From the NCBI GenBank assembly GCA_019358855.1, contig JAHHII010000002.1:250690-314689 (forward strand): 64,000 nt of DNA, in the 5' to 3' direction. The position numbers were made by a program, and so were the translations under genes. The notes below the pieces were generated by a model. The model was not told the DNA's origin and made no database searches. It was given only the letters and a program-made list of their open reading frames with translations. Of the stretch, positions 17,579 through 52,334 are shown in pieces (positions within the stretch are counted from its first letter, which is position 1; each line of letters starts with the position of its first letter). Source of the stretch: Timaviella obliquedivisa GSE-PSE-MK23-08B (GTDB lineage Bacteria; Cyanobacteriota; Cyanobacteriia; Elainellales; Elainellaceae).

Positions 17579-17652
17579 CGGGATGTAGCGCAGCTTGGTA
17601 GCGCGCCTGCTTTGGGAGCAGGATGTCGCAGGTTCGAATCCTGTCATCCCGA
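17579..17652 (+). tRNA. tRNA-Pro (anticodon UGG)
   Basis: 74 nt. The acceptor stem CGGGATG pairs with CATCCCG, discriminator A. The D arm contains AGCGCAGCTTGGTAGCGC, the anticodon arm is CCTGC-TTTGGGA-GCAGG with TGG, and the T arm is CGCAGGTTCGAATCCTG. CCA is not encoded. The 3' end points at an integrase gene 119 bp downstream, so this tRNA is the likely attachment site of the element to its right, with the gene regenerated by the element's copy of the 3' end. Confidence 0.97.
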
Positions 17653-17701
17653 CTTGGTTTCAGCGGTTTCAGCAGTGTCTGAGATTTCTGAAATCAAAAA
17701 T

Positions 17702-17771: not shown

Positions 17772-18890
17772 ATGGCAAATAATTTAGACCGGGCACGCCT
17801 TGCCAAAGAGCAGGCGATCGCCCAAATTAATTCTCGTCTTGAACTAAGCGCTGTCCCCGTGCGAGTTTACCTGAAAGGGATCAATGCGCTGGTTCTGCAA
17901 GCTACTTTGCCCAAAAAACCAGGGCAGGGAGAGGGGAAAAAACAGTATTGTTTAAGCCTTGGACTTGCAGCTAATGCTGATGGACTGAGGCGAATTGAAG
18001 CCGAGGCACAGCGTTTAGGCAGCTTGATTACACTAGGGCGATTTTCTTGGAGCCTGTATTTAGATGAGGTAGAACCAGAAGTACAAAAGGATTCTCCTAA
18101 AGCGATCGCCGAATGGATTGAAGCCTTTAAATGCAGCCACATGCAGCGCTACAAAATTCAAGAGCGCACCTGGCACGATACCTGGCAAATCACGTTTGAG
18201 AAATTGCCTCAGCAGTGCGAACTCAGTGAAGCCGCGATTCTGGCAGTCATTGAGCAAACTCAACCCCATACTCGGATGCGAGAATTGACCGTGCAGCGGC
18301 TGCAAGCGCTGATTAAATTTATGGAGTTTCCGCTAGATATCAAGCCTTATCAGGGGAACTACAATCAGCAGTCGCTTCAACCTCGCACTTTACCGAGCGA
18401 TGAATTAATTTTGAAGTGGCGAGACCAGATACCCAACAAGGGCTGGCGGGATGTCTTTGGGCTGCTAGCAACGTTTGGAATTCGCCCTCATGAAGCGTTC
18501 TTTTGTCGTTTTGTGGATGATTATAAATTAGAGGTCATGAGCGGCAAAACTAATCGCAGAATTGCTCGTGCTATTCATCCAGAGTGGGTAGAGAAGTGGA
18601 ACCTGCAAGCGTTTATTTTGCCTCATGTGAAGGGGCGTGTGCTACGGGATTATGGGCAGCGCTGTAGTTGCCAGTTCTGGCGTTATAAAGTGCCATTTGT
18701 GCCCTATGATTTACGCCATGCTTGGGCGATTCGAGCAACAGTCGTGATGCGCTTGCCCTATGCGATTACGGCTAAGGCGATGGGGCACTCCATCCAGGTT
18801 CACACAAACACCTATCACCGTTGGATTTCAGAGATGGTAGGCGACCAAGTGTATGACGAAATGGTATTAAATTTTGAGCGAAAAAGATGA
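17772..18890 (+). CDS. Tyrosine site-specific integrase
   Basis: Phage-type tyrosine recombinase that would integrate and excise the element at tRNA-Pro. The 372-residue protein has an N-terminal core-binding region and a C-terminal catalytic domain with Arg238 in FGIRPHEA, Arg315 in PYDLRHAWAIR (Tyr replacing the common first His), His339 in MGHS, and the nucleophile Tyr348 in NTYHRW. These are all residues needed for activity. ATG at 17772. It is convergent with the small gene at 18905 (14 bp between stops). The family is common in cyanobacterial islands next to tRNAs. Confidence 0.93.
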   Translation: MANNLDRARLAKEQAIAQINSRLELSAVPVRVYLKGINALVLQATLPKKPGQGEGKKQYCLSLGLAANADGLRRIEAEAQRLGSLITLGRFSWSLYLDEVEPEVQKDSPKAIAEWIEAFKCSHMQRYKIQERTWHDTWQITFEKLPQQCELSEAAILAVIEQTQPHTRMRELTVQRLQALIKFMEFPLDIKPYQGNYNQQSLQPRTLPSDELILKWRDQIPNKGWRDVFGLLATFGIRPHEAFFCRFVDDYKLEVMSGKTNRRIARAIHPEWVEKWNLQAFILPHVKGRVLRDYGQRCSCQFWRYKVPFVPYDLRHAWAIRATVVMRLPYAITAKAMGHSIQVHTNTYHRWISEMVGDQVYDEMVLNFERKR

Positions 18891-21850: not shown

Positions 21851-22663
21851 ATGGGGAGAAAACCTAAGACCTCTGAAAAACGTAGAGTTCAGCTAAGGTT
21901 AAGTCCTCGAAGTGCAGCAATATTTGATGCTTATTCTTCTGATGAATTAAGTCAGATCATGGCGATCGCCCTCGACACCATTAAGCCTGGGTCAAAAATT
22001 ACGACAGTCCCCAGCGTCATCTTGCGCCCTGTGCAAGTTGTCACAGAGTCTATTGCTCGAATTAAAATCGATAAAGATTTGGTTTTAATATTTTTGCCTG
22101 AAAAGATAGAAGAGTTTCGATCGCTTGCCAAAAAACTGCACTATCAATGGATAGATTTTGCTTGGCGACGAACGGTTGAGGAGGATGTAGCGGTTGAGCG
22201 AGCTGCTGAGATCGGATATCGAATTATGGAGTTAGGCATCCCTGTGCAGGTGGACTGTGAGGAGGTTTGCCGCAAAATAATATCTGGCAAGTTTCAGATC
22301 GAGCCTCAACGGGTCATTAAAGTTTGCACATCCGGTGTTTACAAAGGGTGGCTAAGCTTCTCCTACCCTAAGGGAGAAGACTTTTACGATCGCATTATGC
22401 GAATAACAGCAGCAAAATATGCAAATGGCTCTATTCGTGTTCCCATCGAAAATTTTGCAGAAGTTGAAGATTTTGCAGAGATAGAGGGATTTGTGTTTAG
22501 TGAGGCAGCTCAAGAAGCTGTAAATAAGGCTAGGCATTTGATTGACTCTGCCCAAATCCTAGAAATTGCACCTTTAAAAGAACGAACTCAAAAGAAAAGG
22601 AATTCCAAAAAAGATGCAGGTGTTACAGCCGTTCCAGATCATCTTAAAGACGATACTGCTTGA
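21851..22663 (+). CDS. Hypothetical protein upstream of SNF2 helicase, 270 aa
   Basis: I use the ATG at 21851 (MGRKPKTSEKRRVQLRLSP); a GTG at 21707 would add 48 residues that span the inverted repeat. The N-terminus resembles a short basic RHH-like stretch. Later segments include LRPVQVVTESIARIKIDKDLVLIFLPEKIEEFRSL and WIDFAWRRTVEEDVAVERAAEIGYRIMELGIPVQVD, the latter seen in proteins encoded beside helicases of this type. It overlaps the helicase start by 50 bp, so the two are probably co-expressed and may act together. Function unknown. Confidence 0.65.
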   Translation: MGRKPKTSEKRRVQLRLSPRSAAIFDAYSSDELSQIMAIALDTIKPGSKITTVPSVILRPVQVVTESIARIKIDKDLVLIFLPEKIEEFRSLAKKLHYQWIDFAWRRTVEEDVAVERAAEIGYRIMELGIPVQVDCEEVCRKIISGKFQIEPQRVIKVCTSGVYKGWLSFSYPKGEDFYDRIMRITAAKYANGSIRVPIENFAEVEDFAEIEGFVFSEAAQEAVNKARHLIDSAQILEIAPLKERTQKKRNSKKDAGVTAVPDHLKDDTA

Positions 22664-24059
22664 CCATCAAGAAGAAGCGGTAGACAAATTTAAAGGGCTG
22701 CGCGTTGCTGGATTATTTATGGAGATGGGAACGGGAAAAACTCGTACCCTAATTGAGCTTGTAGCGCTTCGGCAACACAAGATTGACCACGTTATTTACT
22801 TCTGTCCAGTCAATCTCAAGAGTACAGTCGTTTATGAGCTAGAAAAACACATCGAAAATCCTAGTGTGTATATTTTTGACGATCGCACCAAACAAGGACG
22901 TATCCCTAAAGCATTCTTCTACGTGATTGGCATTGAATCCATTGGACAGAGCGATCGCATGACCTTGGCAGCAAATGAACTAATTACTGAATCTAGCTTC
23001 GTTGTCCTAGACGAGTCAGACACCTGCAAAAACCATGCCGCCATTCGGACTCGTCGAATTACAGCAATGGCATCACGCGCTAAATATAGGGCGATCGCCA
23101 CAGGTACAGCAGTTGGGGAAGGCGTTGTCGATTTGTATGCTCAGATGTATTTTCTGTCACCTGACATTTTAGGCTACAAATCCTTCTATTCTTTTGCTGC
23201 CAATCATTTGGAATACAGCGAGGAGTATAAAGGGTTAATTGTTCGTAGCCTGAATACCGATGTCATTGCTCGGAAAATTGAGCCATACGTCTACCAGGTC
23301 AAGAAAAGTGAGTGCTTAGATTTGCCCGATCGCCAATATCTCAGCCGCTACTTTTCAATGAGTAGAGCGCAGCAAAGCCTTTATGTCAGAGCCAAGGAAG
23401 AGATTCTGATGGTGGCTGAGGAAGAAATGGATAGCTATGTCATTTTCCGATTGTTTACGGCATTGCGGGAAATCGTATCGGGTTTTTGGAATCGAACGCC
23501 AGACCCTAACCCCAATCACCGATGGGCAGAACAGTTTGAGCCAGAAAAAATAATCGCAGATCACGATCGGGTTGCGCTATTGCAATCAGTCGTTCGTGAA
23601 ATTCCAGTAGACGAAAAGGTGATTATCTGGGTGAATTTTCACCACTGTGTTGATCAGATTGTAGCGGCGCTATCTGATGAATATGGAGAGCAGGCGATCG
23701 CCCAATATCACGGACGGACGGGCGATCGGGAAGCCGAAATTAGCCACTGGCGTAATCATGCTCGATTCCTCATCGCATCTGCTAAGTGCGGTGGACGAGG
23801 ACTAACACTGAATGAGTGCGCCTACACCATTTTCTATAACAACGATTTTCCTTATCGAGTTCGGGAACAGGCTGAAGCCAGGAATCACAGAATCGGGCAG
23901 ACGAGAAAGCCAACCTATATTGATCTGGTGTGCGAGAAAAGTATTGATAACCGAATATTTGTCGCTCTTAACAACAAAGAAAACTTGGTGCAGGCGTTCA
24001 AAAAAGAGATGGACAAACTAAAGAAAGGCGATCGAAAGACCGCATTAAAAAGGCTCTAA
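22614..24059 (+). CDS. SNF2-family DEAD/H-box helicase or translocase
   Basis: 481 residues. Walker A (motif I) is FMEMGTGKTRT (about 35-45), motif Ia region is YFCPVNLKST, motif II is VVLDESD (about 131-136), motif III is AIATGTAV, and the C-terminal motifs V/VI are SAKCGGRGLTLNECAYTI and EQAEARNHRIGQTRKP. The last is diagnostic of SNF2-type double-stranded DNA translocases. Phages use such enzymes in replication, recombination or control of modification. It heads a plus-strand run reaching 27164 that includes a degenerate paralogue and a PP-loop enzyme. Confidence 0.9.
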   Translation: MQVLQPFQIILKTILLDHQEEAVDKFKGLRVAGLFMEMGTGKTRTLIELVALRQHKIDHVIYFCPVNLKSTVVYELEKHIENPSVYIFDDRTKQGRIPKAFFYVIGIESIGQSDRMTLAANELITESSFVVLDESDTCKNHAAIRTRRITAMASRAKYRAIATGTAVGEGVVDLYAQMYFLSPDILGYKSFYSFAANHLEYSEEYKGLIVRSLNTDVIARKIEPYVYQVKKSECLDLPDRQYLSRYFSMSRAQQSLYVRAKEEILMVAEEEMDSYVIFRLFTALREIVSGFWNRTPDPNPNHRWAEQFEPEKIIADHDRVALLQSVVREIPVDEKVIIWVNFHHCVDQIVAALSDEYGEQAIAQYHGRTGDREAEISHWRNHARFLIASAKCGGRGLTLNECAYTIFYNNDFPYRVREQAEARNHRIGQTRKPTYIDLVCEKSIDNRIFVALNNKENLVQAFKKEMDKLKKGDRKTALKRL

Positions 24060-25079: not shown

Positions 25080-26200
25080 AAGCTGCCCTGATCTCAAAAG
25101 ACTACGATCGCCGTCGTCAGTTTATTGAGCGTTTCTTGGTTAAGTCCAAGTCCCCACTAGCGATTTACATTTACCCCAAGAATCGAAAAAAAGAGTTTAG
25201 TCCTCCAGTCGTTCCAGGTTGCAGCATTAACTGTTTCACCTACGAGGATATGTTGAAGACGGATGAATGGCTAACGATCAATGCCCTAGTCAGCAAGGAT
25301 ACAGCGCTGATTCTAGACAACCCCAGCCGTTACCCCAAGATTACATCTACCAAAGTTTTAGCCTTGGAACGAATTGAAAAGATGTGTCAGGTTAAGGCGA
25401 TCGTAGATATTGTGCCTTTCACCCTTGCTATTCAATATCTCTATACGCCTTATTCCTATTTAGGTCGTGAGATTTTAGGCTATGCCCACTACTACGCATT
25501 TCGAGAAAATTATCACGAGATGGATGCAGCAGGCACAGTTCGGATGTCGCACGATTTTGATCTGTTAGCTGACAAGATAGCGCCAGTCACCGAGATTGAT
25601 TACGATCGCTTCCTTTGCCAAAACAGAGAGGCGATCGAGGTTAAATCAACTCCACAGGAACTAGAGAATTATCAAGCGCTGAAAGATGAGTGCTTCGCAG
25701 CCAAAGACTTTAGCCCAAGAGTTGTTATCACTAAGCTGGCGGACTTGGCTCATGCTTTCGATAGTCGTCTACGGGCAATGGTCGATCTGGTGGCAAAACT
25801 GCAAGGCAAAACAGTTGTGCTGACCAATCTCAAAGACTATGCTAAGCGTGCCGAAAAGATAGCCAAAGATGCAGGGCTTGAGATTACTGCTACATCCTAT
25901 CAGCTAGGCTTTCAAGGCAATTTTGATAACTGCATTTATCTAGAAAGCCCGATCGTAAAATCCTACTTCATGCTGGATGCTGAATCGCGGTTAAGTATGG
26001 ACTGCAAGGTTTTTCATATTGTGGGAGATACCAAGGTTGACCAGTATCTCTACACCAACCTACTTAGCGAAATCACCCAAATAGACCAATTTACTCAGGA
26101 GTTGGCTCGTGCAAAAAGACGGCAAACCAGCCCGCAAAATTTACCTGCAAAAAAATGTGCTTCAGGCGGCACAAGAGAGAATCAGTTGGCTCTTTTCTAA
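25076..26200 (+). CDS. Degenerate SNF2-helicase-like protein lacking a Walker A motif
   Basis: 374 residues. Segment LILDNPSRYPKITSTKVLAL aligns by eye with the motif II region of the intact helicase at 22614 (VVLDESDTCKNHAAIRTRRI), with the catalytic DES changed to DNP. The following VDIVPFTLAIQYLYTPYSYL matches its motif III region. The C-terminal half has TVVLTNLKDYAKRAEKIAKD like a helicase lobe 2. The N-terminus (MKAALISKDYDRRRQFIERF) has no GKT loop. It is probably a non-catalytic partner derived from SNF2. TTG start overlaps the upstream gene. Its last 92 bp overlap the PP-loop gene. Confidence 0.6.
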   Translation: MKAALISKDYDRRRQFIERFLVKSKSPLAIYIYPKNRKKEFSPPVVPGCSINCFTYEDMLKTDEWLTINALVSKDTALILDNPSRYPKITSTKVLALERIEKMCQVKAIVDIVPFTLAIQYLYTPYSYLGREILGYAHYYAFRENYHEMDAAGTVRMSHDFDLLADKIAPVTEIDYDRFLCQNREAIEVKSTPQELENYQALKDECFAAKDFSPRVVITKLADLAHAFDSRLRAMVDLVAKLQGKTVVLTNLKDYAKRAEKIAKDAGLEITATSYQLGFQGNFDNCIYLESPIVKSYFMLDAESRLSMDCKVFHIVGDTKVDQYLYTNLLSEITQIDQFTQELARAKRRQTSPQNLPAKKCASGGTRENQLALF

Positions 26201-27164
26201 CTTTAAGGAAGTCGTGGTTAGTGTCTCTGGCGGCAAAGATTCAAGCGTAGCTTTCGAGCTGGCATGGCGACACGCGCAAGAGCTAGGGCGGGAAGTTCAT
26301 GTGTTTTTCCTCGATCAGGAGGCTGAGTATCAAAGTACGATCGCCATCGTGAGGAGTATTTACGATCGCCCTGGTGTAATCCCCCACTGGTGGCAATCTC
26401 CTTTCAAAACGACAAATGCTACCAGCTATGAAGAGCCGCTGCTCTATGCCTGGGGAGAAGGGGAGGAATGGATGCGGGAAAAGGAATCGGATTCATTTCA
26501 AGCCAAAGTTCCGTTAAAGGAGCATGAACAAAACCGGGATACCTTCTACCACATGGTGGAGTATGCCGAGGCTCAGTGGGGTGAAAGCACTGCTCTGCTA
26601 ATTGGGCTACGTTCCGAGGAGTCGTTGAATCGATATGGTGCGGTCACCCGCAATCCAGGAATTGAGAATGTTAAATGGACTTCTAAATCGAGCGGAAAGG
26701 CGATTAAGTGCTACCCCATTTACGATTGGACATTTGAAGACATTTGGACATATATCGGCAATGAGTCTATTCCCTACAACCGCGTCTACGACTGGATGTA
26801 TGTCAAGGGCTTTAATATCCCAGAGATGCGAGTTTCCAACCTCGTTCACGAAAAAGCTTTCCGCTGCCTCTCGACGCTCCATGAGTTTGAGCCAGACACC
26901 TACGATCGCCTGCTCAAGCGACTAAAGGGCATTCACGTTGCTGCCCGATATGCCGATGAACAAACCGTGTTTAGTGCCAAAAAGTTGCCACAGGCGTTTG
27001 AGAATTGGCTAGATTATCGAGATTTTTTGCTCTCGACCCTGCCCAGAGAAGTGCGATCGCCTCCCATGCTCCACCTTTCAGGGCGATCGCCAAATCATAA
27101 AGTGTTTCACAAATCTCGTCTGGCAGACCTGCCAAATGTTTCCATCTCGGAATGTGACCAATGA
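26109..27164 (+). CDS. PP-loop ATPase, PAPS-reductase/IbrA-like (DUF3440-type)
   Basis: 351 residues, GTG start. The N-terminal PP-loop SVSGGKDSS (about 38-46) binds ATP for adenylation. VHVFFLDQEAEYQSTI, WWQSPFKTTNATSYEEPLLY and ECW-like tracts followed by IKCYPIYDWTFEDIWTYI fit PAPS-reductase-family proteins of the IbrA type, known as partners of ParB-like IbrB in Escherichia coli gene regulation. It is not QueC: the QueC zinc cysteines are absent. DndC, of DNA phosphorothioation, is a more distant relative. It shares 92 bp with the pseudo-helicase, and its last 194 bp lie opposite a minus-strand gene. Confidence 0.8.
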   Translation: MQKDGKPARKIYLQKNVLQAAQERISWLFSNFKEVVVSVSGGKDSSVAFELAWRHAQELGREVHVFFLDQEAEYQSTIAIVRSIYDRPGVIPHWWQSPFKTTNATSYEEPLLYAWGEGEEWMREKESDSFQAKVPLKEHEQNRDTFYHMVEYAEAQWGESTALLIGLRSEESLNRYGAVTRNPGIENVKWTSKSSGKAIKCYPIYDWTFEDIWTYIGNESIPYNRVYDWMYVKGFNIPEMRVSNLVHEKAFRCLSTLHEFEPDTYDRLLKRLKGIHVAARYADEQTVFSAKKLPQAFENWLDYRDFLLSTLPREVRSPPMLHLSGRSPNHKVFHKSRLADLPNVSISECDQ

Positions 27165-41078: not shown

Positions 41079-41858
41079 CTAGAATGCCCCTGCCGCAATC
41101 ATCCGAAACCTCAGCCAGTCGATTCCTTCCTGGATTAGTTCTTGGGTCTGCTCAACAGACAATCCTTGCTGAGTGGCGATCGCCTCGTCAGGCAAGTTGT
41201 CCAAAAAGCGGCTCATGAGGCAGGAATAGTAAGGCTCGGATAATAACGAGAGATGCTGGCGTAGGGCTTTAATGCGATCGCTTGCCTCATCTGCCTCACT
41301 CGCATCACAGACGGCAAAGTGATGAGTGTTCTCTTCGAGAGAAACAACAGGCTTGCGGTGCATTGCCTGTTTAATCGTCCCCCACGTCCTACGGGCTTCC
41401 GTCTCGCTGGAGCATCTCGGCTTCTTCAGGAGAAGGGACACCGCAATTTCGTCAATGGATTGATTTCTACCAGCAGCTATAAATTCACGATGGATTTTCG
41501 CCACCGTGCCATGAAATTCAATCCAGCGGCGCGGAATTTTGTAGCTACCGCGCCAGTTGTCTCGCAGGAAGTGCAATATCTCACCTTTGATATAGAGCAC
41601 AGCAAATGAACTAAATGCCACGTTACGCGCGGGATCAAAGCGTTGAATGGCTTTGTCTAGCCCAATCACACCGCACTGAATTAACTCATCCAAGTCTTCG
41701 CCACAACAATCTTTAAGTTGGGTGGCGATCGTCACCACTAGCCCGTTATTTTGCTTGATCAAGCTGCTTCTCAAATGCTTGACCTTTGGCGAGTCTGTAC
41801 CCTTCGCTCGATGATACGCCTCCAGCATTTCGGCATTGTTCGTTTTTTTAATTACCAT
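41079..41858 (-). CDS. Phage-encoded sigma-70 family factor
   Basis: 259 residues from ATG 41858; a TTG at 42002 would extend it into the upstream gene. Region 2 is clear: NGLVVTIATQLKDCCGEDLD, ELIQCGVIGLDKAIQRFDP, FSSFAVLYIKGEILHFLRDN, with the promoter-melting aromatics. Region 3 and a region 4-like helix-turn-helix (LPDEAIATQQGLSVEQTQEL) follow. The group resembles SigF/SigB-type alternative factors. Located between early/middle genes and late genes, it likely drives the late virion operon. Promoter specificity cannot be read here. Confidence 0.88.
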   Translation of the reverse strand: MVIKKTNNAEMLEAYHRAKGTDSPKVKHLRSSLIKQNNGLVVTIATQLKDCCGEDLDELIQCGVIGLDKAIQRFDPARNVAFSSFAVLYIKGEILHFLRDNWRGSYKIPRRWIEFHGTVAKIHREFIAAGRNQSIDEIAVSLLLKKPRCSSETEARRTWGTIKQAMHRKPVVSLEENTHHFAVCDASEADEASDRIKALRQHLSLLSEPYYSCLMSRFLDNLPDEAIATQQGLSVEQTQELIQEGIDWLRFRMIAAGAF

Positions 41859-41979
41859 TGATGAGTTTTGCCGAAGCGTCCAGGAATTTACTACTTCTAA
41901 AATGGGAAAAAAAGTTGTCTTTTCTATCAGAATTGCAAAAAAATTTTCCTCAACAAATTCCGCCGCAGACTCAAGGTAT

Positions 41980-42459
41980 TTAACCGAGAGCAGTTCTTCC
42001 AATTTTTTGCAATCGTTCCAACGCCTTCGCCATATCGTCTAGGGTTTGGTAGCTAATCGCTTTCTCTTCATCGCTCCCATTCCCCTTTCTTGCGTCCTCA
42101 ATTTGACCTTGTAGTCGAGACGAGAGCAGTATTAAACCTGCTTTAGCTGCGTTGTAGCACCTTGCATCCCACTCCGCTAAATCGCCTGCTAGTGCGGTTG
42201 ATTTTTGTTCTTGACGCTTATTAGAAACAGTTTGGAGGTATCGCTCTGCCTCAACTTTCCAATTCTCTGAAGCCGCTTTTTCTCGCAAATAAGACGGTGC
42301 GCAACCGTGCGTCTCTGCAAGCTGCTCAAGAGTCGGTCGAGACGCTTCATCCGGTGCGTGGATGTATTCCTCTTTAATCTTCTGCCAGTTGTATTTTGCC
42401 AAGGAGTTCCAAAACCGACACCGTGTCGGATCTTGTCGGAAAATTCCCACGATCGCCAC
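41980..42459 (-). CDS. Terminase-small-subunit-like helix-turn-helix protein, 159 aa
   Basis: The N-terminal part has KIKEEYIHAPDEASRPTLEQ, LAETHGCAPSYLREKAASENW, a helix-turn-helix in the style of phage small terminase subunits (stepwise domain, then 'ENW' turn). A helical body and coil (DEEKAISYQTLDDMAKALER) follow. Small terminases bind the packaging start site. No large subunit is adjacent, so a transcription-regulator role is equally possible. Divergent from the SAP-like genes across a dyad at 42513-42565. Confidence 0.55.
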   Translation of the reverse strand: MAIVGIFRQDPTRCRFWNSLAKYNWQKIKEEYIHAPDEASRPTLEQLAETHGCAPSYLREKAASENWKVEAERYLQTVSNKRQEQKSTALAGDLAEWDARCYNAAKAGLILLSSRLQGQIEDARKGNGSDEEKAISYQTLDDMAKALERLQKIGRTALG

Positions 42460-46285: not shown

Positions 46286-48049
46286 ATGACTGCTTTCAAT
46301 CGTATTCGAGATTTCTTTGGTGCAGCATTACCCGTCGTCGCACTGGACTCTCCTAGCGCTGAAGAACTGACCACCATTGAAAAAATTCATGTCGAGGTGG
46401 GCAAGCGGCTAAAGCTGCCCGTCTATGTCTTCGACCTGGCAGCCGGACTGCGCCAAGTGGTTTCGGTTCAGGAAGCCACCTACTTTTTGGAAGATGGTAG
46501 CGAGTTTGAGGGCGAAGTATTTCAGCACTCTACAGGGTTTTGGACGGGCGATCCTGAGAACGGTCTTGAGGAAAAGCAGCTTCGCCAAGAAAACCGCAAC
46601 GTTAGCGGTATCGACCTCAAACCGATCGCCACTCAGTTCCGCAATCCGTTAATCGATATCTGCAAACACATTGAGCAGTTCGATAAAAAAGGGATCTTCG
46701 TTCTAATCGATTTGCATCATTTTCTAAGTGGCGATCGCACCGTTTGGGAGTTCCGTCGCTCCATCAAACACCTCGCCACAGCACTGAAACAATCCCATAA
46801 GCGGGTGGTGTTGCTAGGCAGCGATATTCGGCTAGATGCCGATTTCTCTGGGCTGGTTTACGACGCGCATAATATGTTGCCTGAACTGGCAGAGATTCAA
46901 GAGGCAGTCAACCTTTGCATCAACGATATGGAGCAGGAGTTTACGGCGATCGGGGGCAAAAATAAGTTCAAGGTGCAGCTCGACGGCGAGGAACGGGAGG
47001 CGATTTTTACAGCCTGTCGAGGGTTAAGCATTGAGGAGGCATTGAACGCACTGCGAATTGATATGCGATCGCGCCGTCGTGTCGATGGAGCCACAGCAGC
47101 AGCCGTAACATTGTTCAAGATTGAGAAACTGGAGAAGCTGAACATTCGCTTTTCTCATCCTCCAGACGTTGTGCCAGGTGGAGTTCAGGAGTTCAAAGCA
47201 TGGGTGCAACAGCGAAAAAGATTGTTCAATGCAGTCGTATCTAAGCAGCCGATCAAGCTGAAATTACCCGTTCCTAGAGGTTGTTTAATTGTTGGGCCAT
47301 CAGGAACAGGTAAGAGCCTATTAGCAAAAACTTTGGGCAACTGTTGGAATATCCCCATTCTGCAAGTCGATATTGGTTCATTTTATTCCAGCCTGGTAGG
47401 AGAAACCGAGGCGAACTTTAGGCGGTTTACGCGCATGGTGGATCACATTGGACCTTGTGTTGTACTGCTGGATGAGGTTGAAAAAGCGCTCGCTGGCGTT
47501 GGCGGGCAAAGTAACGACAGTGGCGTGAGCCAGCGACTGTTCGGTTCATTGCTGACCTGGATGAACGATAAAACCTCACCATGCTTTGTCGTGGCAACTG
47601 CCAACAATATTGAAGCGCTGCCGCCCGAATTCAAGCGTAAAGGACGCTTTGACGAAATCTGGTTTGTGGACACTCCTAACCAGGCAGAGCGGCGCGAGAT
47701 TCTGACCGTGCATCTCTCCCGGCATGGTGTGGAGATGAGCGATCGCCACCTCGATATCCTCGTCAAGCTCACTGACGAATTTGTTGGGGCAGAACTGGGG
47801 CAGGTGACCAACGAAGCTGCGATCGTTGCCGCCGAAGCTGGACGTGATGAGATTCTCTTGTCCGACATGGAAGAGGCGATCGCTCAGACGGTTCCATTGG
47901 CGCGATCGCAGGCTGACACGTTGGCTAATCTGAGGGAATGGGCAACGACAGCGGCTCGTCCTGCTAGTAAGGCTGAAGCAGTGCAGGAGGCGATCGCCCA
48001 GCCTATGAACGGCAAGCGCGGTAAGCCTCAGATGTTGATCGAAGATTAA
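46286..48049 (+). CDS. Ycf46-like AAA+ ATPase
   Basis: 587 residues. The N-terminal half has the Ycf46-type domain (RLKLPVYVFDLAAGLRQVVS, NPLIDICKHIEQFDKKGIFVLID, KRVVLLGSD). From about 330 the AAA+ core: PRGCLIVGPSGTGKSLLAKT (Walker A), FYSSLVGETEANFRR, CVVLLDEVEKA (Walker B), sensor and arginine finger in RKGRFDEIWFVDTP. Chromosomal/plastid Ycf46 is linked to photosynthetic acclimation in cyanobacteria. Here it is on a prophage, in operon with DUF1257/DUF2997, pointing to an ATP-driven remodelling complex. Confidence 0.9.
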   Translation: MTAFNRIRDFFGAALPVVALDSPSAEELTTIEKIHVEVGKRLKLPVYVFDLAAGLRQVVSVQEATYFLEDGSEFEGEVFQHSTGFWTGDPENGLEEKQLRQENRNVSGIDLKPIATQFRNPLIDICKHIEQFDKKGIFVLIDLHHFLSGDRTVWEFRRSIKHLATALKQSHKRVVLLGSDIRLDADFSGLVYDAHNMLPELAEIQEAVNLCINDMEQEFTAIGGKNKFKVQLDGEEREAIFTACRGLSIEEALNALRIDMRSRRRVDGATAAAVTLFKIEKLEKLNIRFSHPPDVVPGGVQEFKAWVQQRKRLFNAVVSKQPIKLKLPVPRGCLIVGPSGTGKSLLAKTLGNCWNIPILQVDIGSFYSSLVGETEANFRRFTRMVDHIGPCVVLLDEVEKALAGVGGQSNDSGVSQRLFGSLLTWMNDKTSPCFVVATANNIEALPPEFKRKGRFDEIWFVDTPNQAERREILTVHLSRHGVEMSDRHLDILVKLTDEFVGAELGQVTNEAAIVAAEAGRDEILLSDMEEAIAQTVPLARSQADTLANLREWATTAARPASKAEAVQEAIAQPMNGKRGKPQMLIED

Positions 48050-48354: not shown

Positions 48355-48750
48355 ATGAAAACTAGCTACTATGCCATCACGCCCGACACGACACTAGGCG
48401 CGATCGCCATCAGCCTTTACCCACCGCCCAACACTCGCTACCAGCAATACAAATGTCTGGCTCCAACCAAGCGCCTACTCAGCGAATATAAATACGATTT
48501 TCTAGACGAGGAGGGTTACACGAAAATTTATCGTACTCAGTTAGCAGAACTTGATCCGATCGCCGTCTGGAACGTGCTGCACCAAATCGCCGATCCACTT
48601 GGCAAGGTTGAGCCAATTCTGTTGTGCTACGAGCGATCGGGTTCATTCTGCCATCGGCGGATCGTTGCCGATTGGCTTGGTGCAGCAATGAATGTAGAGA
48701 TTCCTGAGTTTGAAAAGCCGTCTTCAATCAAACAGATCTCGTTATTTTAA
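48355..48750 (+). CDS. DUF488-family protein, 131 aa
   Basis: The DUF488 C-terminal signature is clear: PILLCYERSGSFCHRRIVAD followed by WL. N-terminal part YYAITPDTTLGAIAISLYPP differs from canonical DUF488. The family is unassigned biochemically but often near DNA-modification genes. It ends 4 bp inside the convergent QueD-like gene. Confidence 0.75.
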   Translation: MKTSYYAITPDTTLGAIAISLYPPPNTRYQQYKCLAPTKRLLSEYKYDFLDEEGYTKIYRTQLAELDPIAVWNVLHQIADPLGKVEPILLCYERSGSFCHRRIVADWLGAAMNVEIPEFEKPSSIKQISLF

Positions 48751-49088
48751 GGGGGGCAGCGAACCTCCGCCCCACACTCCCCATCCTCAAATACTCCCAC
48801 CCGCACCGATCGCCCCGGATAGCGATCGGTGATTTGTTTGAGCAGGTTTTCTGCCATGTGTTCACAACTTAATCCGCCCATTTCTCCCCCAGGAAAGTTG
48901 GTGCGGCAGAAATCTAAGAAATCATGGAACTCTACTTCTCTGCAAGAATGATGCAGCTCTAGCTTCACCTCGACGTGAAAGAGATGGCGATGGCGTTGGG
49001 CAAGGTAGGCGCGATCGCCCGTTGCATCCTGCCAATGATGGAAGCCAGGGACTTGAAAGCGGATAATAGCTGAAGATTGAGTTTTCAT
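48747..49088 (-). CDS. QueD-like (6-pyruvoyl-tetrahydropterin synthase superfamily) protein, copy 1
   Basis: 113 residues. FHHW and RHRHLFHVEVKLELHHSC provide the zinc-His layout of QueD/PTPS (His, then HxH), and SCEHMAENLLKQ then VRVGVFEDGECGAEV match the C-terminal Glu region. It is smaller than canonical QueD. QueD makes 6-carboxytetrahydropterin for 7-deazaguanine synthesis. Same strand as QueE, DpdA and a second QueD-like gene (51259), so it probably belongs to that pathway. Overlaps the DUF488 stop by 4 bp. Confidence 0.7.
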   Translation of the reverse strand: MKTQSSAIIRFQVPGFHHWQDATGDRAYLAQRHRHLFHVEVKLELHHSCREVEFHDFLDFCRTNFPGGEMGGLSCEHMAENLLKQITDRYPGRSVRVGVFEDGECGAEVRCPP

Positions 49089-49110
49089 AATTTAGGGAGA
49101 AAAATTGTAA

Positions 49111-49308
49111 GTGGAACTCCAAAACATTTTGAATGAGCGGTTTAAGACTTATCAGGATGCGATCACCAAGCATGGTCAAGAGTGCTTACTGATTCATGAA
49201 TTGCCAAAAGAACCCGTAGGTTCTGTCAATCCCGTTAGTCATTTTTCAACGACTAGACTGCAATTAATCCCCTCCCTAGATGGATGGCAATATGTGGTGA
49301 GCCAGTAG
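49111..49308 (+). CDS. Small hypothetical protein, 65 aa
   Basis: GTG start with AGGGAG about 14 bp upstream. MELQNILNERFKTYQDAITK then GQECLLIHELPKEPVGSVNP. Divergent from the QueD-like gene. The 49309-49433 region after it holds a repeat copy and no other gene. Confidence 0.45.
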   Translation: MELQNILNERFKTYQDAITKHGQECLLIHELPKEPVGSVNPVSHFSTTRLQLIPSLDGWQYVVSQ

Positions 49309-49391
49309 GGCGATCGCCCCTAGTTGGCAACACGTCTGAACAGCCAATGCAGTCCTATTTGGAGAAGATGTTGTCTCATTTGGAGAAGAGG

Positions 49392-49426
49392 GCGTGCTCT
49401 TCGAGATACCCGCAAGGGGTCGCGCT
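49392..49426 (+). repeat. Dispersed element repeat, copy 4
   Basis: Reads gcgtgctcttcgagatacccg then caaggggtcgcgct, nearly identical to copy 1. It ends 8 bp before the stop side of the DpdA-like gene at 49434. A tggagaaga-type direct repeat lies just upstream (near 49361 and 49381). Confidence 0.85.
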
Positions 49427-49433
49427 ATTTTTG

Positions 49434-50345
49434 TCAGGCTTTTGTCGGGTACAGCTCGCAGCCCAACGCTTTAAGTGACTGAATATGATGCCGCCAGTTC
49501 AGCATATTCATCCGGCTTTCATAGGCTGCCAACTGTACCGCCTTATCTGCACCAACTGCCGACTCATGATCACTGCCTAATTCATATCGAAAGTCCAGTG
49601 GATAGGGCGAGAACGTTTTGCCATCACACCGGGCTTTGTGGCTATCTGCCCAACGAATACCCACCAGCCAACTCGACGAGTCACCAGAGTTAATAGGCAT
49701 GGCGTTTAGCCACTCATTCGGCGTTAAGCCCAGCAAATGAATCCACAGATGCGGATATTTGCGATGTCGTTCCCAAGCTGTGGCTACCAGTTGCTTGCGA
49801 GTTGCTCGGTCAGCCTGTACAACGTTGCCGAAGCAGATGCGATCGTAGCGCTCGGCAAGGTAATCAAAATAGTCCCACCCATCGTTAAACGGGTGATAAA
49901 CAGGAATCGGTCGCAGCCCCATTCCTTCCAGCTTCGCGCGGGTTTTAATTTTGTTCTCCCGTCCGCCCTGGTCTAGTTCAATGAAGCCCCAGCACTTATC
50001 GCCTAACCGTCGATAAATGGCGATGTACTGTTCTAATAGTTCATCAAATCCGTCGATTTCATTTGGTGGCAATGCCAGCGCTTGATCCATGTTGCAGCCG
50101 TGAGCCTTGGCGTGTTGCTGGGTCAAGTGGAAGATGCCGGAGTCGATGAAAACCTTTTTGCCCCGATCGCACCATTGTTCAATCAAATCGACGGCACCCG
50201 CATTTTGCAATTCATTCACCGCAATCAGCAGATGATCATAGAGCGGTTCAGCTAGTGCCAGCCGCCCTGTTCCTGATGCCAGGAAGTAAACATTTTCTTC
50301 AGATGGGTCAAAGGTGCCACCGCCTGTTTTAAGCACGTTGGACAC
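49434..50345 (-). CDS. DpdA-like tRNA-guanine-transglycosylase-fold DNA modification enzyme
   Basis: 303 residues from the GTG at 50345 (AGGGGG upstream); a TTG at 50393 adds 16. YFLASGTGRLALAEPL, VFIDSGIFHLTQQH, WGFIELDQGG, IPVYHPFNDGWDYFDYLAER, CFGNVV, HLLGLTPNEW, INSGDSSSW follow the pattern of phage DpdA proteins, which insert 7-deazaguanine bases into DNA in place of guanine. The Asp in DSG is the presumed catalytic/recognition residue. It overlaps the ParB-like gene by 17 bp and sits with QueE and two QueD homologues. Strong family fit by eye. Confidence 0.8.
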   Translation of the reverse strand: MSNVLKTGGGTFDPSEENVYFLASGTGRLALAEPLYDHLLIAVNELQNAGAVDLIEQWCDRGKKVFIDSGIFHLTQQHAKAHGCNMDQALALPPNEIDGFDELLEQYIAIYRRLGDKCWGFIELDQGGRENKIKTRAKLEGMGLRPIPVYHPFNDGWDYFDYLAERYDRICFGNVVQADRATRKQLVATAWERHRKYPHLWIHLLGLTPNEWLNAMPINSGDSSSWLVGIRWADSHKARCDGKTFSPYPLDFRYELGSDHESAVGADKAVQLAAYESRMNMLNWRHHIQSLKALGCELYPTKA

Positions 50346-51198
50346 TGCCCACCCCCTTGACGTTCTCGTATTGGTCAAGGATGTGCCCAGCAATGTATTC
50401 GTCAGGCTGCACCATGACCAGCGATCGCTCTTCTGCCTTGAGAGTCAGTGGGACAAATGGACCGGGATAGGGTGCGAAAATCGCATCTTCTTTCAAATAG
50501 CCAGTCCACTTCTGCCAATCAGTCATGACATCAGCCACAACCATAATGTGCCGACCCAGGTTCCAGACATCGCCCTTATTAACCTCGTGGCGAGGGTTGG
50601 CGATCGTGATTTCTGTCAGTGCCAGCAAGGAGCCGTCTGATTTCTGCCCTGATTCCTGATGGTCGGGATCTGCTGATTCATCATCTTCAGGTGATCCTGA
50701 GTTTTGAGAGGTGTGATTGCCCCCTGCTGGTGACATGGGCGTGCCATTCTCGCCAAATATTTGTTTATCCTGAAAGTTCAGAACTCCCAAGTTGAAAATG
50801 CTGTCACATTCCTCAAGAGAAAACCCAGTCAAATCTAAGTCAAAATCAAGCTCCTGTAGAGCTTCTAGTTCCACTTTGAGCGATTCGTAATTCCAATCTG
50901 AAATGCCCACCTTATTATCGGCAATGCGGCAGGCTTTCTTCTGTGCCGGGGTCAGGTCATCCCGAATGATCACCGGAACTTCTAGTAAATCCAGCTTGCG
51001 GGATGCCAGGTGGCGACCGTGCCCTTTGAGGATTACGCCGTCCTCATCCACAACGATCGGCACATCGAAACCATATTCGATGATTGACCCCGCGATCGCG
51101 TCAATCTGGCTCGGTGGATGGAGTTTGTTATTCAGAGGATAGGGCGTAATCTTATCGATCGGCACCCAAATAATTTCAGGAGAGAACTGCTTAGCCAT
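50329..51198 (-). CDS. ParB-domain protein fused to a degenerate DNA-methyltransferase-like domain
   Basis: 289 residues. The N-terminal ParB/sulfiredoxin-like fold has IDKITPYPLNNKLHPPSQID, VDEDGVILKGHGRHLASRKL and KKACRIADNKVGISDWN. The C-terminal part reads VNKGDVWNLGRHIMVVADV, then FAPYPGPFVPL where a catalytic methyltransferase would have (D/N)PPY, and ends VMVQPDEYIAGHILDQYEN, like the SAM-fold end of ParB-methylases. The NPPY-type motif is lost. Thus an inactive methylase probably became a DNA-recognition domain in the 7-deazaguanine cluster. Confidence 0.75.
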   Translation of the reverse strand: MAKQFSPEIIWVPIDKITPYPLNNKLHPPSQIDAIAGSIIEYGFDVPIVVDEDGVILKGHGRHLASRKLDLLEVPVIIRDDLTPAQKKACRIADNKVGISDWNYESLKVELEALQELDFDLDLTGFSLEECDSIFNLGVLNFQDKQIFGENGTPMSPAGGNHTSQNSGSPEDDESADPDHQESGQKSDGSLLALTEITIANPRHEVNKGDVWNLGRHIMVVADVMTDWQKWTGYLKEDAIFAPYPGPFVPLTLKAEERSLVMVQPDEYIAGHILDQYENVKGVGSVQRA

Positions 51199-51258
51199 GC
51201 CGCAGCCTCCTAGTTAGAGTATTCATTTCTTACCTCGTAGATGCGCTCTAAAATTCCC

Positions 51259-51702
51259 TCAGCGAACCAGGCTTGTGACCCGTTCAGGCGACTCGAAAAC
51301 ATCTACTCGCAGTAATTTAATATGGGGGTCAAGCTGAATTTTGGCAAAATACAGGCACAAATCTTCTGTAGTGCCGCCAGCCAAATCTTGATGATCATTA
51401 ATTAACTCAGGTAGCTCAGAACAAGAATACTTGAGCAAGTTTTCTTGTTCAATCATGTCTAAGCCATACATACCAGAGATGCTTCTTTCTGCTTGCAAAT
51501 GCAGCGTCACCCGAAAATCATGCCAATGGTCATCCTGCCAAATGGGCGGGTTAAAGTGCCTGCGCCTGAATGAGTGGCTAATCTGATAGTGAAATATCAC
51601 AGGGCACTCATGGGCGCAGCCTTGAGAATAGGGTACGGAAAGCCCTCGCAATGCCTCTGGGTAGTGCGATCGCGCCTTAAAGCTTGGCTTGAAGTTTTCC
51701 AT
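51259..51702 (-). CDS. QueD-like protein, copy 2
   Basis: 147 residues. FRRRHFNPP and DDHWHDFRVTLHLQA form the zinc-His set of the QueD/PTPS superfamily. MYGLDMIEQENLLKYSCSEL and GTTEDLCLYF, LLRVDVFESPERV follow, as in QueD. The canonical catalytic Cys before the HGH motif is not seen; Trp fills that zone. Its ATG at 51702 overlaps the QueE stop. One of the two QueD-like proteins may be the enzyme and the other a variant with a different product or role. Confidence 0.72.
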   Translation of the reverse strand: MENFKPSFKARSHYPEALRGLSVPYSQGCAHECPVIFHYQISHSFRRRHFNPPIWQDDHWHDFRVTLHLQAERSISGMYGLDMIEQENLLKYSCSELPELINDHQDLAGGTTEDLCLYFAKIQLDPHIKLLRVDVFESPERVTSLVR

Positions 51703-52334
51703 TACTGCACCCCAATAAACTTATGGGTTTGCAGACTTAATCTAAACTTAGGATGCTGTTTGAGCAGGTCTAGAGTAAGTGGCAGAGTGCGATCGCGCTC
51801 ATTCCATTCAGGTTGCAAACAAGCATTCCGAAGCGCAAGGTGCTTGTAGTAAAAATCAACTTCTTGCCCGGATGAAATCACAATCTTAATTTCATTAGCC
51901 CGCTGCCACATCTCTGAATGAACGGGATACTTCGGAGATAAATGCTGCTTTGGAGAAAGCGTCACCCATGTCGGATTTGGAATATTCTGCCAAAAAGCAC
52001 CAGAGGTTTCAATCTGCACTTGTCGCCCAGTCGCGGCGATCGCTTCTACCAACATCGGCAGTTCTTTGTGAATGAACGGCTCCCCGCCAGAGATAACAAC
52101 ATGGGGCGATCGCAGTTCGTTGATTAATCCTGCGATGGTGCGATCGCTTCGAGGTGTACTTTTACCGCCGTCTGCATAACCTGTGTCACACCAAGGGCAA
52201 GCAACAGGGCAACCTGCCAGCCGAATAAAATCAGCGGGAGTGCCAGCCCAATAACCCTCACCCTGGATTGTTTCAAAGAATTGCTCGTGAATTGGCAGAG
52301 TAGTCTGCTGCGTAAATAGAGTCAAATTTTTCAT
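51702..52334 (-). CDS. queE: 7-carboxy-7-deazaguanine synthase QueE
   Basis: Radical-SAM enzyme converting 6-carboxytetrahydropterin to CDG. 210 residues. [20 protein letters not shown] is the QueE N-terminus, the 4Fe-4S site is C42-x3-C46-x2-C49 (CPVACPWCD), which is the QueE-specific C-x3-C-x2-C spacing. VVISGGEPF is the GGE motif, and TSGAFWQN and [10 protein letters not shown] follow. First gene of the modification cluster, divergent from nblA. QueC and FolE are not in the window and might come from the host. Confidence 0.93.

Follow-up and report, generated by a model that had tools for sequence, protein, structure and literature searches.

Organisation of the locus

The window (the whole stretch of 64,000 nucleotides analysed here, contig C2:250690-314689 of a genome of 4.9 Mb) carries five intact minus-strand open reading frames, transcribed in the order QueE, QueDb, ParB-like protein, DpdA and QueDa (Table 1). 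PsaA and PsaB are encoded in this genome, which identifies the host as a cyanobacterium. All five genes, including the C-x3-C-x2-C motif of QueE, were found where an earlier note on this DNA had placed them, and the homologies are supported. The start codon of DpdA, a GTG at position 50345, was deduced from its relatives, the frame being open to position 50393. A gap of 345 bp separates DpdA from QueDa in the window, which counts against the pathway proposed below; the order ParB–DpdA–QueDa recurs in dozens of viral contigs, which puts the gene set far outside what chance would give. A DUF488-family gene (48355-48750) converges on QueDa with a 4-bp overlap. It was considered as a further part of the module and discarded, since it was found only in the identical locus L003 and is absent from L004 and L021.

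Table 1. Features of the cluster and of the prophage that carries it (window positions unless stated otherwise).
Feature	Position	Strand	Evidence and remarks
QueE, CDG (7-carboxy-7-deazaguanine) synthase, 210 aa	51702..52334	-	CX3CX2C; TIGR04322; phrog_2076
QueDb, divergent QueD, likely CPH4 synthase, 147 aa	51259..51702	-	PF01242, E 1.4e-4; stop/start overlap with queE
ParB/Srx domain (aa ~1-140) plus core-deleted methyltransferase domain (aa ~190-289)	50329..51198	-	PHROG 620 ParB, E 2.4e-45
DpdA, DNA guanine transglycosylase, 303 aa	49434..50345	-	phrog_887, E 5.6e-22; hhalign to 9g DpdA
QueDa, DpdL-like QueD-fold protein, proposed CDG decarboxylase, 113 aa	48747..49088	-	AlphaFold2 fold; QueC exclusion
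attL, 56-bp end of tRNA-Pro(TGG)	17600..17655	+	Repeat comparison; tRNA called by ARAGORN
attR, second copy of the 56-bp tRNA-Pro repeat	contig C2:369248-369303		Outside the window
Integrase, adjoining attL on its inner side	17772..18890	+	phrog_1 integrase, E 1.1e-6

The cluster had been described as part of a prophage, and this is borne out by its surroundings. Specifically, a direct repeat of 56 bp, corresponding to the 3' end of tRNA-Pro, bounds a span of about 101 kb, with the integrase gene adjoining one copy and genes for a terminase and a baseplate wedge protein lying between the two. In addition, a 97.5-kb IMG/VR contig starts exactly at position 17772 and is identical to the window DNA in the parts compared. 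Therefore, this DNA is the integrated prophage of a temperate cyanophage, and the 7-deazaguanine cluster lies inside it. The prophage also encodes a sigma-factor-like protein (41079-42002; phrog_351, E 2e-25), and an AAA+ ATPase maps to window positions 46286-48049 (phrog_8638, E 3e-102).

DpdA and its relatives

The protein starting at position 50345, previously noted as DpdA-like, matches the PHROG 887 family, annotated as 'queuine tRNA-ribosyltransferase', and aligns by hhalign with the experimentally validated DpdA of phage 9g (98.4%, E 7.2e-15). In this alignment its DSG and DSSSW motifs and His203 find their counterparts in 9g DpdA, His203 corresponding to 9g His196; the residues D68-S69-G70, D222-S223-S224-x-W226 and His203 are invariant among 17 relatives. 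As 9g-type DpdA is told from DpdA2 by His196 (PMC6884629), the window protein combines the homology and the catalytic-aspartate motifs expected of a DpdA with the histidine of the 9g type. Searched against PDB sequences, the DpdA profile gave no TGT match, and the tRNA enzyme model PF01702, run across the genome, matched the host TGT only and not the prophage DpdA. When compared with phage records, the window DpdA showed 22-28% identity across about 50-75% of the protein, which on sequence grounds sets it apart as a separate DpdA clade.

Direct scans for relatives identified 18 viral contigs and three genomes (an Oscillatoriales MAG, Amycolatopsis and Bradyrhizobium), while a profile scan for the clade recovered 79 viral contigs, forming 62 clusters at 90% DpdA identity. 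In this census QueE and canonical QueD were each found in 71 contigs, FolE in 70 and QueDa in 64. Many of these contigs are fragmentary, so that the absence of QueC from any one of them is weak, and the statistic reported below rests on the contrast between classes.

A ParB/pseudo-methyltransferase protein accompanies DpdA

The N-terminal ParB/Srx domain of the ParB-like protein, assigned through PHROG 620, also finds PDB matches to Noc/ParB, and Foldseek on the model of the whole protein gave mainly ParB/Srx folds among the matches. Alignment with intact ParB-methyltransferases shows that the remainder of the protein consists of the two ends of a methyltransferase joined directly, with DPPY and the core deleted; the GxG loop is changed to (A/C)PYPGPF. 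Neither DPPY nor GxG was found in any of the 74 pseudo-methyltransferase domains compared.

In all 74 testable contigs of the census (n = 79) this domain directly precedes DpdA; the other five, which lack it, are truncated no more than 80 bp from the upstream end. The ParB N-terminal domain shares its frame in 72 of the 74; of the other two, one is cut by the contig end and one is a fusion with a portal protein. In this last case, a single contig (L011/L170, frame L011:5963-8056), a phage portal protein encoded just upstream of dpdA carries the pseudo-methyltransferase domain at its C-terminal end, an arrangement that might couple base exchange to packaging. Neither the 9g-type clusters nor the other QueDa phages examined yielded the domain. 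The former description of this protein as a ParB-methylase remnant is correct insofar as it is a core-deleted ParB-methyltransferase; being conserved in 74 contigs, it is a partner domain, and decay was rejected.

Since the pseudo-methyltransferase domain is found next to DpdA in QueC-bearing and QueDa-bearing contigs alike, its partner is DpdA. The bacterial DpdB is a ParB-like ATPase needed together with DpdA for base insertion (PMC12839542); DpdB usually accompanies DpdA, and phage DpdA, too, is suspected of having a homologue of DpdB next to it (PMC6392294). The arrangement described here, a ParB-superfamily domain beside DpdA, is that expected of a DpdB-type protein, and by analogy we infer that the ParB/pseudo-methyltransferase protein brings DpdA to DNA, as DpdB does in bacterial Dpd. 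A more extended proposal, to which we would give even odds, is that a distinct DpdA clade has this protein as its obligate partner, the methyltransferase having lost its catalytic core to let the ParB clamp deliver DpdA to DNA, and that the supply of the base is modular, either QueC or the DpdL-like QueDa filling the one slot beside the same DpdA. An invariant, uncharacterised and putatively DNA-targeting partner of DpdA bears on how DpdA finds DNA.

QueE, QueDb and the supply from the host

QueE, whose radical-SAM motif reads C-PVA-C-PW-C, has Pfam, NCBIfam and PHROG support. The TIGR04322 match (E 6e-40) scores 137 bits where the equivalog cut-off is 200 bits, and the phrog_2076 match has an E-value of 3.4e-36. 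In the loci compared, the best match of the phage QueE outside cyanobacterial prophages is the host chromosomal QueE. QueDb scores 22.3 bits with PF01242, 0.1 below the cut-off of 22.4, a match that we accept as PTPS homology, and it is 40% identical to the host QueD of a chromosomal queE-queD-queC-queF operon. At the aligned Cys27 site QueDb carries a Trp, the same loss as in the host-operon QueD, and this counts against the pathway proposed below. Judging from these sequence relationships, the phage QueE-QueDb pair may derive from the host queE-queD pair. The host queE-queD-queC-queF operon, in which QueD has Trp in place of Cys27, and a further canonical PTPS of 288 aa, fused in tandem and lying near tgt, were recorded at L001 (G000:C5:57931-61557) and L036 (G000:C10:80859-84254).

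QueC had not been seen beside these genes, and a genome-wide search with TIGR00364 agrees: it matched the host operon, which lies on another contig, and gave a single sub-threshold match outside the prophage, with none in the window. FolE is found in the genome on contig C1 only, outside the prophage. Both host genes that the earlier note proposed to look for, folE and queC, are thus present in the genome. In the cyanobacterial relatives G001 and G002, FolE and canonical QueD are absent.

Fold of QueDa and mutual exclusion with QueC

A Pfam search with QueDa gave no match. The AlphaFold2 model of the protein (pLDDT 95.7) has E. coli QueD (4ntk) as its best PDB match, with a Z score of 13.5 and an rmsd of 2.2 over 109 residues, and at the profile level QueDa is matched to canonical phage QueD (93%, E 2.8e-7). 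Across 25 aligned QueDa sequences, H17, H33, H35 and E101 are invariant, which corresponds to a T-fold with three zinc histidines and an anchoring glutamate. The QueD catalytic Cys27 and Asp-His dyad are absent in all 25, whereas the canonical QueD of the same kinds of phages retains them. Therefore, of the two proteins initially described as QueD-like, both are indeed QueD-related, but QueDa, having kept the fold without the catalytic residues, is not a spare QueD; the possibility of a second QueD or a QueD substitute was rejected also because canonical QueD coexists with QueDa in most relatives. QueDa occurs in at least 590 viral loci, is labelled 'hypothetical protein' in public phage records, and has relatives beside FolE, QueD and QueE in Cellulophaga phage phiST, ACP17 and others.

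None of 26 QueDa-positive records, each searched over its full length with the QueC model, contained QueC. When 50 further contigs were searched, QueC was present in six, all of them without QueDa, and in 0 of the 37 that were QueDa-positive. Combining the data for this DpdA clade, QueC occurs in 0/55 QueDa-positive versus 6/13 QueDa-negative contigs (Fisher p = 1.6e-5), and after dereplication at 90% in 0/44 versus 6/11 (Fisher p = 1.6e-5). In four of the six QueC-carrying contigs, QueC sits directly after dpdA, which is the slot of QueDa. QueC is also missing from eight QueDa-positive isolate phages, and in another 50 contigs with QueDa, most of which do not have this DpdA close by, there was no QueC above the cut-off and one fragmentary sub-threshold match.

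The exclusion and the shared slot point to an action of QueDa at the CDG branch point instead of QueC; as far as these comparisons go, QueDa very probably replaces QueC and processes CDG. A CDG decarboxylase named DpdL, giving dDG, is said to have been predicted by Cui and colleagues in 2023, and dDG has reportedly been described from phages; QueDa fits this predicted enzyme and is classed here as DpdL-like. The window holds the setting ascribed to DpdL, namely a phage cluster that has QueD, QueE and DpdA but no QueC, and the phiST neighbourhood is alike. The layout, which the earlier note could match to no described one, recurs in 79 viral contigs and has a reportedly predicted counterpart in the DpdL-type solution. 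From this genomic logic and the reported DpdL prediction, the reaction of QueDa would most likely be a DpdL-like decarboxylation of CDG, and the inserted base is likely to be 7-deazaguanine (dDG) and not dCDG or dPreQ0. The mutual exclusion and the slot replacement provide independent comparative evidence for an enzyme diverting CDG from preQ0 in phages, a diversion which to our knowledge is known only as a prediction. The contrast between QueDa and QueC bears, in turn, on how phages choose among 7-deazaguanine bases.

Four contigs with this DpdA clade (L192, L212, L217 and L220), in which neither QueC nor QueDa was found, are candidates for dCDG or for dependence on the host, or are fragments. 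In Faecalibacterium phage Roos (L030) a ParB domain, QueDa and DpdA are adjacent and the pseudo-methyltransferase domain is absent; no FolE, PTPS or QueC was found in this phage. Phage Rosebush, for its part, has DpdA and QueC.

Proposed pathway and alternative readings

All together, we estimate a probability of about two in three that the locus is a temperate cyanophage module replacing guanine in DNA by 7-deazaguanine, with QueDa in the place of QueC. According to this scheme, H2NTP would be made by the host FolE, converted into CPH4 by QueDb and then into CDG by QueE. QueDa, standing in the position that QueC holds in sister phages, would turn CDG into 7-deazaguanine, most likely by decarboxylation, and DpdA would exchange guanine in DNA for this base after replication, leaving dDG as the product. 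The ParB/pseudo-methyltransferase protein would bring DpdA to DNA or keep it there, and the likely purpose, we infer, would be protection from restriction.

The earlier note had suggested that the inserted base could be CDG itself or could depend on host QueC; both suggestions are probably wrong, given that QueDa excludes QueC and coexists with canonical QueD. That DpdA inserts CDG itself (dCDG), or that QueDa acts on CDG, or on the inserted base, in some way other than decarboxylation, is in our opinion unlikely. This would agree with the absence of QueC and with the few contigs having neither QueC nor QueDa, and the exclusion indicates a branch at the level of CDG but does not specify the reaction. 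As a final base, however, CDG would not explain why a QueD-fold enzyme is kept in 64 of the 79 contigs and swapped for QueC, and the fold of QueDa is that of pterin/deazaguanine enzymes.

Use of host QueC by the phage and insertion of preQ0, leading to dPreQ0 or dADG in the manner of CAjan or of bacterial Dpd, is highly improbable. The host does encode QueE-QueD-QueC-QueF and TGT, and since it has its own QueC, preQ0 is available, a point against dDG formation through QueDa; but the phage would then not need its own QueE/QueD or QueDa, and in its relatives QueE and QueDa are retained, in most cases alongside FolE and QueD, while QueC never occurs together with QueDa. We see equally little chance that the cluster is inactive or serves tRNA rather than DNA modification. 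The prophage is resident, queuosine genes are related and QueDb lacks Cys27, yet all the reading frames are open and conserved in distant relatives, DpdA matches the DNA-modifying 9g enzyme, and PF01702 finds only the host TGT in the genome.

Comparison with known systems

The locus resembles the DpdL clusters, reportedly predicted, in its QueC-less set of QueD, QueE and DpdA and in the occurrence of QueDa relatives in Cellulophaga phage phiST; unlike in those clusters, QueDa, which would correspond to DpdL, is here linked to another DpdA clade and to ParB. With the phage DpdA-type systems of 9g and CAjan (Hutinet et al. 2019, PMC6884629) it shares the DSG/DSSSW motifs, the His196 equivalent, QueD, QueE and a presumed anti-restriction role. 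In contrast to that type, the window has QueDa in place of QueC/Gat-QueC and is without a FolE of its own; its DpdA is about 23% identical to that of 9g, is partnered by the ParB/pseudo-methyltransferase protein, and belongs to a temperate prophage.

As in bacterial Dpd with DpdB, a ParB-superfamily protein stands beside DpdA, but here it ends in a methyltransferase domain that has lost its core. A place in a bacterial Dpd defence island was rejected, the five cluster proteins giving no PADLOC Dpd model match. Phage ParB-methyltransferase fusions (AcaML1 gp25, PHROG 498) share with the window protein the N-terminal ParB domain, the linker and the flanking ends of the methyltransferase, whereas the DPPY, the central core and the GxG motif have been lost in all 74 proteins described here. 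Elsewhere in the prophage, two further proteins are possible defence genes: a PAPS-reductase/DUF3440 protein weakly resembling DndC (26109-27164) and a SNF2 helicase that resembles the ZorD/DpdE helicase domains (22614-24059).
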